Origin: Prochlorococcus sp. AG-402-A21 | Lineage (GTDB): Bacteria; Cyanobacteriota; Cyanobacteriia; PCC-6307; Cyanobiaceae | NCBI GenBank assembly: GCA_003279655.1 | Contig: QCHI01000001.1 | Coordinates: forward strand, 62,001-126,000 | Length of the DNA: 64,000 bases | Direction of reading: 5' to 3' | Shown: positions 4,376 through 21,075 of the stretch, piece by piece | Position numbering within the stretch: position 1 is the stretch's first letter | Layout: the number at the start of each line of letters is the position of its first letter | Notes under the pieces: model-generated | Seen by the model: the letters and a program-made list of their open reading frames with translations, nothing else | Told to the model about the DNA's origin: nothing | Database searches by the model: none | Program-made: the position numbers and the translations under genes

Positions 4376-4666
4376 TCATTTCCTACCCTTAAAAGTTCGA
4401 GGATAAGGGATATTAAGAGCATTAAAACTTTTCAATTTTTTTCTACGCAGATAACGATTATAAAACAAGTCGAAAAGTGTCGATACTCCTAACCAAGATA
4501 GAATACAACTTATAAATATCCTTACACCTTCCGTGGAAGCAAGCCAATAGATAATAGGGTCTACTATAAGGTTAATACTAATTATAAACCCAATAAATAA
4601 AGAGAAAGTAAGACAAGCTATTACAAATAAAGCTCTGATTATTTTTTTTGTTTTGAAATTTTTCAT
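4376..4666 (-). CDS. small membrane protein, 96 aa
   Basis: Starts MKNFKTKKIIRALFVIACLTF (ATG at 4666; a TTG two codons earlier is possible). There are two clear hydrophobic segments (about residues 11-32 and 48-66) and a basic C-terminus (YLRRKKLKSF...PRTFKGRK) suggesting a cytoplasmic tail. No family recognised. It lies at the edge of a long gap with no intact gene. Confidence 0.5.
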   Translation of the reverse strand: MKNFKTKKIIRALFVIACLTFSLFIGFIISINLIVDPIIYWLASTEGVRIFISCILSWLGVSTLFDLFYNRYLRRKKLKSFNALNIPYPRTFKGRK

Positions 4667-4855
4667 ACCCAAATGTTTGAAATCGTATTAGGAATACATA
4701 TTTTCCATTCTCAAGCAAGATAGATAGCAAAGGAATTTTAATGTAATAAAAGTTGATTCACCTTTAATAGCAAATATATACAATTCACAGATCAAATAAT
4801 AGAAAAGCCAAAGGCAGACATTAAGATTTGGTTTAAGTTAGGATTAAATTAAATC

Positions 4856-4891
4856 AACTACCTTTAATAGATATATCTATTAAAGGTAGTT
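4856..4891. repeat. perfect 36-bp palindrome
   Basis: Two 18-base arms meet with no spacer, and every base pairs across the centre at 4873/4874. The left arm begins AACTACCTTTAATAG. The 11-mer ACCTTTAATAG of the left arm also occurs 100 bases upstream at 4760-4770. No T-run follows it and no intact gene is adjacent, so it is not an ordinary terminator. It could be a protein-binding site, a cruciform-forming element or a mobile-element end. Confidence 0.8.
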
Positions 4892-4941
4892 AGGTACTTA
4901 CATAGCAATCATGCAAGGAAATTACTTTCATTCATCTAAAC

Positions 4942-5175
4942 ATGAAAATTACTTATAGACAAATTCTTGGAAACTTACAAACTACTCCCAGAAAATCATT
5001 ATATTAACTACTTTTAGCCAATGATATTGCATCAATCTTTCGAGGAAATGATATCAGAATTCTATATAATATGATTAAAAGAACCGACCATTTCAATACT
5101 GAAGTTCAGTTAGCTATTGATCAAGAATGCAGAGAATGGATTAAATGCATAAAGAACAAAGACCTTGTTCCATAA
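4942..5175 (+). pseudogene. possible small gene broken by one in-frame stop
   Basis: From ATG at 4942 one frame runs 78 codons to TAA at 5173-5175 and is interrupted only by TAA at 5005-5007. Before the stop it reads MKITYRQILGNLQTTPRK; after it, a stretch ending in WIKCIKNKDLVP. An internal ATG at 5071 would still give 34 residues. The composition (Arg, Lys, Asp, Glu, Trp, Cys in a soluble pattern) looks coding. I do not recognise the family, so this could be chance, a decayed gene or a sequence error. Confidence 0.3.
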
Positions 5176-5566
5176 AACATACTCTTTATAAATACATCTA
5201 CTTTTAGGAAAAGTTTTCAACAAGAAGAATCCCTTGTTTATATTTAGATCAGTTCCTAACCTTTTTCTAACCCATGTTTACATACAAATTATTTGATAGA
5301 GGTGACATTAAATTTTAGATAATGAGGAATGAACTAAATGGAGATTCATTAACATGAAATGATCTCGTTGATTTACGATTATATATATATAGATAAATAT
5401 CCTATCTTAAAAAATAGATTAAACTTACAAAAATAAACTGAGAAAATTCAAAGGGCTTTATTTTTGGGATCACAACTTTCAATGAAGAAAAAGTAAAAGA
5501 TTTTCTTTAATTGCCTAGGAAATAGAAAAATCTGGCGAAAATCAAATTTAATGATCAAAAAAAATT
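5176..5566. other. AT-rich leader region upstream of the amino-acid transporter
   Basis: About 390 bases without a convincing frame. It should carry the promoter of the transporter operon. I looked for a GTA-N8-TAC NtcA site here and saw none. A run of alternating AT lies near 5380-5390. No riboswitch or terminator structure was recognised. Confidence 0.4.
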
Positions 5567-6613
5567 ATGCGTCGATTGGTATCAGGAATAGTTGGTCTAG
5601 CAGCTCTATTGGCTGGCTGTGCGACAACAAATCAAGACAATAGTTCAAGACTTAACCTAATAAAAAATCGCAATGAGTTGATTTGTGGAGTAAGTGGAAA
5701 GATTCCTGGATTTAGTTTTCTGAAAAGTGATGGTAGTTATCAAGGACTCGATGTAGATATATGTAAAGCATTTGCTGCTGCAATTATAGGAGATTCAGGG
5801 AAAATACAATATAGACCTCTAACTGCAGCAGAGAGATTTACTGCTATCAAAACTGGGGAAATTGACCTGTTATCAAGAAATACCACTTTCACTCTCAGTA
5901 GAGATTCCACAGGAGGCAATGGATTAACTTTTGCACCAGTTGTTTTCCATGATGGCCAGGGATTGATGGTCAAGAAGGAAAGTAAAATCAGTAGTCTTCA
6001 AGATCTTGCAAATAAATCTATATGTGTAGGCTCAGGTACAACTACTGAGCAAAATATAAATGATGCATTTGAAAGTGCCTCACTGCCCTATACACCAATC
6101 AAATATCAAGATCTTAATCAAGTAGTTGCAGGTTATTTACAGGGTCGTTGTTCGGCTATGACTTCTGACCGTTCACAATTAGCAGCAGCCAGATCTGGTT
6201 TTAAAAATCCAAAAGAACATATTATTCTTGATGATGTATTGAGCAAGGAGCCACTTGCTCCAGCCTCCGATGGCCAAGATCAGAAACTAGCTGATGCCAT
6301 GAGATGGGTTGTCTTTTCCCTTATATCGGCTGAAGAACAAGGAATAACAAAGTCAAATATTGATGAAAAAGTTAAAATTGCAAAGAATAATCCTCAATTA
6401 AAACCTTTAAGAAGATTTTTAGGTGTTGATGGAGGACTAGGAGAAAAGATTGGTCTTAGCAATGACTTCGTAGTTAAAGTAATTAGCTCAACTGGCAATT
6501 ATGGAGAAATTTACGAAAGACATTTAGGAGAAAATAGCGAGGTGCCTATTCCGAGAGGACTAAATGAGTTGTATAACAAAGGAGGTGTACATATTTCACC
6601 ACCATTTAACTAA
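5567..6613 (+). CDS. natF: amino-acid ABC transporter, substrate-binding lipoprotein
   Basis: Periplasmic binding protein of the polar/general L-amino acid ABC family (AapJ/BztA type, NatF in filamentous cyanobacteria). The first 18 residues are a lipoprotein signal ending in the lipobox LLAG-C18. A family-3 solute-binding domain follows: ELICGVSGKIPGFSF, then GLDVDICKAFAAAI, ERFTAIKTGEIDLLSRNTT and the hinge region VGSGTTTEQN. Total length 348 is typical. The genes for two permeases and an ATPase follow at spacings of 18, 3 and 6 bases, one operon. Likely substrates are acidic, neutral or polar amino acids; the specificity is inferred from the family only. Confidence 0.88.
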   Translation: MRRLVSGIVGLAALLAGCATTNQDNSSRLNLIKNRNELICGVSGKIPGFSFLKSDGSYQGLDVDICKAFAAAIIGDSGKIQYRPLTAAERFTAIKTGEIDLLSRNTTFTLSRDSTGGNGLTFAPVVFHDGQGLMVKKESKISSLQDLANKSICVGSGTTTEQNINDAFESASLPYTPIKYQDLNQVVAGYLQGRCSAMTSDRSQLAAARSGFKNPKEHIILDDVLSKEPLAPASDGQDQKLADAMRWVVFSLISAEEQGITKSNIDEKVKIAKNNPQLKPLRRFLGVDGGLGEKIGLSNDFVVKVISSTGNYGEIYERHLGENSEVPIPRGLNELYNKGGVHISPPFN

Positions 6614-18308: not shown

Positions 18309-18863
18309 TCACTTATATTTTTTACATAAAAATATACCTTCTTCTCCATCAACTTCTCTCAATCTTAAATCAATAGTCTCATCTTTACTTGTTGGAACTA
18401 CGCGGCCACAAAAGTCTGGTTGAATTGGAACTTCTCTGTGCCCTCTATCAACCATAGTAAGAAGAGTAACTCTTTTTGCTCGACCCCATGAATGTAAGGC
18501 TTCTAATGCTGCTTTGATAGTTCTCCCGGTATATATAACATCATCAATTAAAACAACCTCTCTATTATCAACAGAGGAGGGTAAATCAGTTACTTGGGTT
18601 ATTCGAGTACCAACTCTCGCAAGATCATCTCTATGAAAAGTAGGGTCTAAACAACCATTCTCAACTGGCTGACCAGATAATTCCTGTAAATATTTTGCCA
18701 ATAATTTAGATAAATAAACTCCTCTAGTTGGTATTCCAACAAGCAATAAAGAACTAATGCTTGGAATCTTTTCCAAAACTTGAGAAGCCAATCTTTTTAT
18801 GGTTCTATCAAGTTCTTTTTGTGAGAGGATTTCTATCTCTTTTTTTATGGATTCATCTAGCAT
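18309..18863 (-). CDS. pyrR: PyrR: uracil phosphoribosyltransferase / pyrimidine regulator homolog
   Basis: 184 residues with the type I phosphoribosyltransferase fold. The PRPP loop is VVLIDDVIYTGRTIKAALEAL, and an N-terminal helix plus LLLVGIPTRGVYLSKLLAKYL matches PyrR. The region RDDLARVGTRITQ corresponds to the RNA-binding face in Bacillus PyrR. No pyrimidine biosynthesis genes are adjacent, so here it may act only as a uracil salvage enzyme (inference). Confidence 0.9.
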   Translation of the reverse strand: MLDESIKKEIEILSQKELDRTIKRLASQVLEKIPSISSLLLVGIPTRGVYLSKLLAKYLQELSGQPVENGCLDPTFHRDDLARVGTRITQVTDLPSSVDNREVVLIDDVIYTGRTIKAALEALHSWGRAKRVTLLTMVDRGHREVPIQPDFCGRVVPTSKDETIDLRLREVDGEEGIFLCKKYK

Positions 18864-20893: not shown

Positions 20894-21010
20894 ATTTTTT
20901 TAGTACCACTTTCATTTTTTTATATCTAAATAAAATATTTTCCACACTAAAATTAAAAGTTTCACATATATTATTTATAAAATTTTTTTGAGATTTAGAT
21001 ATAGTTTCAA

Positions 21011-21053
21011 ACAAAAAGAGAGAGAATGCTTATAGCATTCTCTCTCTTTTTGT
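21011..21053. terminator. bidirectional rho-independent terminator, 20-bp perfect stem
   Basis: The arm 21011-21030 pairs without mismatch with 21034-21053 across a TAT loop. The stem core is AGAGAGAGAATGCT and the ends are A5/T5 runs, so either direction gives a stem followed by a T-run. It lies between convergent secG and groEL and is well placed to serve both. Confidence 0.9.
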
Positions 21054-21075
21054 TAAGTAGATGAAAGGTTAACGA

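Follow-up and report, generated by a model that had tools for sequence, protein, structure and literature searches.

The perfect 36-bp palindrome at 4856-4891 is most likely ordinary for the most part: one half is a conserved element, and full symmetry was reached in the lineage of the window alone (the window being the whole analysed stretch of 64,000 nucleotides of a Prochlorococcus genome). We consider it probable that a conserved cis-element within an older quasipalindrome was perfected recently by a template-switch mutation, and that the symmetry need have no function. In a single genome, a perfect palindrome is easily mistaken for a selected signal; comparison across species parts the conserved half from the recent symmetry. 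The site is likely a natural bacterial case of inverted-repeat correction, and it lies alongside a truly conserved palindrome in the same genome. Coordinates are collected in Table 1.

Table 1. Features at and around the palindrome, and one palindrome for comparison (window positions unless a locus is named)
Feature	Position	Strand	Basis or remark
Divergent conserved gene, no Pfam match	4376-4672	-	ATG at 4666; open in 20/20 relatives examined
Highly conserved stretch, putative leader or promoter of the divergent gene	4691-4755	-	mean majority share 0.956
ACCTTTAATAG, chance match to the arm	4760-4770	+	alignment with relatives
Conserved element TCAACTAC(T/C)TTTAATAGATATAT, includes the left arm	4854-4876	+	4862 is T in 18/18 relatives, C in the window
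Perfect spacerless palindrome, two 18-bp arms	4856-4891	.	reverse-complement identity and simulation
16-bp inner core AATAGATATATCTATT, whole or partial in relatives	4866-4881	.	pair counts
Outer right arm AAAGGTAGTT, variable in relatives	4882-4891	.	window differs from the majority at 5/10 sites
Decayed small ORF, ~67 aa in relatives, frame broken in the window	5021-5225 (end approximate)	+	ORF comparison
38-bp perfect palindrome ATTCATATTAGTAAGAAGATCTTCTTACTAATATGAAT, spacerless, intergenic	L052:7274-7311 (G000:C3:87274-87311)		upstream of a SulP-like transporter gene

The sequence AACTACCTTTAATAGATATATCTATTAAAGGTAGTT is identical to its own reverse complement, with no spacer and no mismatch, as the initial annotation had claimed. 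Simulated sequence (2 Mb, first-order Markov, composition of the palindrome's own intergenic region) reached a longest perfect spacerless arm of 12, in one case, versus 18 here. The palindrome exceeds chance expectation. The search for further copies that had been proposed found a single copy in the own genome (G000; a 1.67 Mb draft of 41 contigs, 96 percent complete) at up to 3 mismatches, and a 13-base motif allowed 1 mismatch had 10 genome sites versus 7 for the reversed control. A 25-base half pattern was present in 15 of the 41 genus genomes, always at the palindrome locus (in the relative G002 at C1:1447563-1447587) except for a site in G036 and another in G037, both with 3 mismatches. 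The exact half pattern was found in the records Prochlorococcus sp. AG-402-B05 and AG-402-I20, and viral contigs held no exact match to the palindrome. A spacerless, intergenic palindrome would suit a copy of a dispersed repeat (REP-like or a mobile element), but the single copy, the locus-bound half pattern and the lack of a viral match rule against this origin, which we regard as extremely improbable.

Some Prochlorococcus genomes come from single cells by way of whole-genome amplification, and we take the AG-402 records, the two named above among them, to be of this kind. A sequencing, amplification or assembly artefact of the draft would agree with its 41 contigs, with the half pattern occurring in two AG-402 records and with perfection in one genome only. 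However, the flanks run on in normal synteny, and the same class of palindrome (spacerless, perfect, arms of at least 13) occurred 11 times in 1.6 Mb of four closed genomes, versus three times (arms of 16, 18 and 19) in 451,533 bp of the own genome. Such palindromes are thus no peculiarity of the draft, and an artefact is very improbable. Some of the 11 were mutually orthologous, and some were terminator-like with A and T runs.

In the genus set, 33 of 41 genomes (own included) matched part of the 1,243-base query. A single match ran across the palindrome site in 19 relatives (L011-L029), giving 20 loci together with the own one. Majority shares were counted over 18 relatives (L022 and L032 left out); for covariation, pairing and edit distance L029 was left out as well, so that the pairing counts cover 17 relatives. 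The left arm CAACTACTTTTAATAGATATA was near-invariant, with a mean majority share of 0.948 (4856-4873), versus 0.711 in the outer right arm (4882-4891). The perfect 36-mer was private to the own genome (1 of 20 loci); each of the 17 relatives aligned over the element had a less perfect inverted repeat. In the inner core, all eight pairs were Watson-Crick in five of the 17 relatives and seven of eight in six more, while the other six had 2-6. The outer part formed 4 to 10 of its 10 pairs, G-T included. The closest to perfection was not free of flaws: L013 had 8 Watson-Crick and 2 G-T outer pairs and all eight inner pairs, plus one extra base. L011 and L020 carried 2-nt deletions inside the dyad, L029 retained little of the element, and in L022 the element was deleted, though both neighbouring genes are open there. 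Conservation, which the initial annotation had wanted checked, thus holds for the left arm and, less strictly, for the inner core; the outer right arm varies, and the perfect symmetry is private.

The five outer right-arm letters in which the window deviates from the majority all pair with its own left arm. Four of them replace a majority letter that would mispair with the left arm or form G-T. The fifth, G4885, pairs with C4862; relatives pair A with T there, so both sides have been exchanged. Deviation from the majority at 5 of 10 outer sites compares with 27 of 204 in the flanks (Fisher p 0.008), where the five sites depend on gap placement.

Because of its position and conservation, the left half is most likely a cis-regulatory sequence of the divergent region (promoter or operator half). 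The promoter scan gave 6 sites versus 8.0 expected. The left arm may resemble the minus-strand block TCAACTTTTATTACATTAAAA (4736-4756). With up to 3 mismatches allowed, neither of the two had a further genome site except for the palindrome's own second arm, and no regulon emerged. A full DNA operator, on which a dimeric regulator would bind the dyad, mainly its inner 16-bp core, and control the divergent gene and/or the small ORF, is unlikely. It would explain the near-invariant left arm, the site between divergent genes and the inner cores that are fully or almost fully paired in 11 of 17 relatives. It is opposed by the 2-nt deletions within the dyad, by the six relatives with only 2-6 inner pairs, by the loss of the whole element in L022 next to two open genes and by the lack of a second genome site. 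Moreover, the left half is much more conserved than the right (majority share 0.948 versus 0.775), unlike the half-sites of a symmetric operator.

Selection on a folded structure received no support from covariation, for which the 17 relatives scored 0.069 versus 0.074 in shuffles. Paired cells amounted to 75.0 percent, against 75.0 percent in shuffles. One pair was changed on both sides, and 131 of 500 shuffles were as high. When the pairing partner was slid, paired cells dropped to 33-47 percent, a contrast that is expected when a structure derives from one of the compared sequences; covariation at the +1 slide was higher (0.105). Because of this drop, we take the relatives to carry a quasipalindrome in the register of the palindrome. 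Their outer pairs numbered 106 of 170, versus a mean of 73.9 when partner columns were permuted, and 1.45 percent of permutations reached that count; placing the gap after AAAG instead gave 99 of 170 versus 69.5 (2.2 percent). As these counts are high and covariation stays at the level of shuffles, the imperfect dyad is older but shows no covariation.

A plus-strand RNA hairpin, serving as a 5' leader element, a processing site or the end of a small RNA, is accordingly distinctly unlikely. The predicted folding energies of the window RNA (-22.9 kcal/mol on the plus and -27.5 on the minus strand) and of L013 (-16.6 on the plus strand with G-U pairs, -12.4 on the minus strand) would suit it, as would the exchange of both sides at C4862-G4885 in one gap placement. 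But several relatives fold weakly, the plus strand has no T-run, and compensatory pair changes do not exceed shuffles, on which ground a conserved RNA hairpin was rejected. No Rfam family reached its gathering score in the window, and the matches in 4600-5300 all stayed below threshold; a known RNA family was therefore discarded as the identity of the palindrome. A tRNA was rejected as well.

A role in termination had been judged a poor fit in the initial annotation, and we agree: the plus strand has no T-run after the palindrome and no terminator site. The minus-strand scan flagged a terminator-like site at the palindrome with the tail ATTTAATTTA, but this tail is weak and only 4 of 17 pairs are G-C. 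No intact minus-strand gene ends just before this site. An intrinsic terminator, with a GC-rich stem and then a T-run after a gene end, was dismissed accordingly. The arm motif ACCTTTAATAG does recur as had been noted, at exactly 100 bp spacing (4860-4870 in the arm), but the recurrence looks coincidental, since at both sites the match relies on letters that few relatives, or none, carry. G4770 is T in 16 of 19 relatives and G in one; C4862 is private to the window, with T in 18 of 19 relatives and a gap in the remaining one. The direct repeat was thus dropped as a feature.

Other palindromes offer a comparison. The one upstream of the SulP-like gene (named from sequence, without a family search) resembles 4856-4891 in being spacerless, perfect, intergenic and of similar length. 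It differs in its spread: 11 of 26 loci (the own one counted) have it perfect with an arm of at least 18, and a compensatory change occurs, whereas 4856-4891 is perfect in 1 of 20. Four more loci have it at full length with 1-2 mismatches, among them L113 and L114, where T-A is changed to G-C on both sides; it is shorter or gone in the remaining 11. This palindrome looks maintained and 4856-4891 does not, which would make the former by far the stronger candidate for a selected operator or hairpin. A 32-bp perfect palindrome lies in a uppP-like coding sequence (named from sequence; L054:11548-11579, i.e. G000:C4:31548-31579) and is perfect in 1 of 30 loci, that of its own genome. In the closed genomes, both kinds occur. 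The arm of 15 at 93,865 in G004 is perfect, versus scores of 7 and 5 in orthologues, and the terminator-like arm of 21 at 293,433 in G003 compares with 14 and 13 in orthologues. Arms of 17 bp are perfect in both G004 and G006, and palindromes perfect in two closed genomes point to maintenance there.

The proposed origin of 4856-4891 would start from a conserved cis-acting element of ~20-26 bp (TCAACTACTTTTAATAGATATA...) between the divergent small gene and the small ORF. This element and the sequence on its right make up an imperfect inverted repeat. In a replication template switch, the established route of quasipalindrome mutation, the nascent strand would fold back and one arm would be copied from the other, which would give the perfect 36 bp; an ordinary point mutation or another round of copying would have to be added. 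We infer both the template switch event itself and the absence of a role for symmetry.

The element in the window is 3 edits from that of L013. This count may understate the change, since in the tree the window groups not with L013 but, weakly (65/80), with L011, from whose element it is separated by 8 edits. Distances to the other 16 aligned relatives were 7 to 11 edits. Random triple edits of L013 gave a perfect palindrome in 9 of 300,000 trials, and seven random edits from L012, L014 or L015 in none of 300,000 each. Undirected mutation is therefore unlikely, which leaves selection or copying from arm to arm. Copying is favoured because the symmetry is absent in relatives, because the uppP-like palindrome is also private and because closed genomes hold similar cases. 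The private changes that match the other arm are C4862 and those in the outer right arm. As C4862 lies in the left arm, the would-be source, and is itself private, at least two steps appear to be needed: a point mutation followed by copying from left to right, or copies in both directions. Under gap placement A2, C4862-G4885 is a change on both sides, as selection for pairing would also give, and selection for symmetry in this one species is still conceivable.

PMC7202029 describes quasipalindrome-associated template-switch mutations as a mechanism in E. coli and also in yeast and phage T4. As in those mutations, an imperfect inverted repeat was perfected here by clustered changes matching the other arm; the present case differs in that it is derived from species comparison and not from a mutation assay, and in the two or more steps. 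A template-switch origin or repair of RNA stems is the subject of PMC8794818. There, too, several mismatches and G-U pairs give way to perfect pairing in one lineage, but the stem at 4856-4891 has no sign of an RNA gene. No paper among the matches listed joined Prochlorococcus with quasipalindromes or template switching, and the accessible part of a paper on small RNAs in NATL2A (PMC7368042) does not name the palindrome locus.

A broader version of this origin is possible but doubtful. The Prochlorococcus genomes compared here, among them the own one in which SbcD had no match, may accumulate perfect palindromes through ongoing quasipalindrome correction, so that many long palindromes between genes, and some within coding sequence, would be scars of mutation and not signals, with this locus a fresh one. 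If this is true, a promoter-like half-site would have been duplicated in inverted orientation and could serve both flanking genes.

Perfect repeats of this kind had been taken to suggest a selected function or a recent origin. For the symmetry, recent origin is supported by perfection in 1 of 20 loci; selection for symmetry is not, given the varying right arm, the lack of covariation and the deletion in L022. The accompanying premise, that such repeats are usually unstable, is weak here. At 36 bp, the palindrome is short for instability of the SbcCD type. A search for SbcD (TIGR00619) that was positive in 13 of 14 control genomes gave no match in the own genome; as the latter is 96 percent complete, absence is unproven. 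The large subunit of ExoVII (XseA) is present.

The palindrome had been placed in a gene-free gap. It is indeed intergenic, but the leftward gene is intact (Table 1). In 19 of the 20 relatives examined, this divergent gene encodes 96-98 aa; L029 has 107 aa when read from the longest start. Counted from the aligned start, the small ORF on the other side stays open for 66-67 codons in 14 of 20 relatives, among them the distant L032. It is broken in the other six and in the window, where the copy has one internal TAA. A tie between the element and this ORF was rejected: L022 has an open ORF without the element, and in L021, L023, L024, L025 and L027 the ORF is broken from the aligned start while the left arm has 0-2 differences from the majority. 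The ORF represents the remains of a ~67-aa protein family present in 9 of 151 family genomes sampled, some of which have more diverged copies elsewhere.

The small ORF is followed by an amino-acid ABC transporter substrate-binding gene at 5567. The 109 bases before this gene (5455-5563) have 96 percent matches in both G002 and G007; the former lies ~340 kb away from the palindrome locus and the latter ~2.6 kb beyond it. This suggests that the block has been relocated in some members of the genus.

Two hairpins with loops were also seen. At 21010-21054 of the window, 21-bp perfect arms with a 3-base loop lie between a convergent SecG-like ORF and a GroEL-like gene (names from sequence), and the hairpin looks like a two-way terminator. 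At L046:18215-18248 and 18480-18513, two identical terminator-like hairpins (13-bp arms, an 8-base loop, then T's) stand 265 bp apart, which suggests a recent local duplication.
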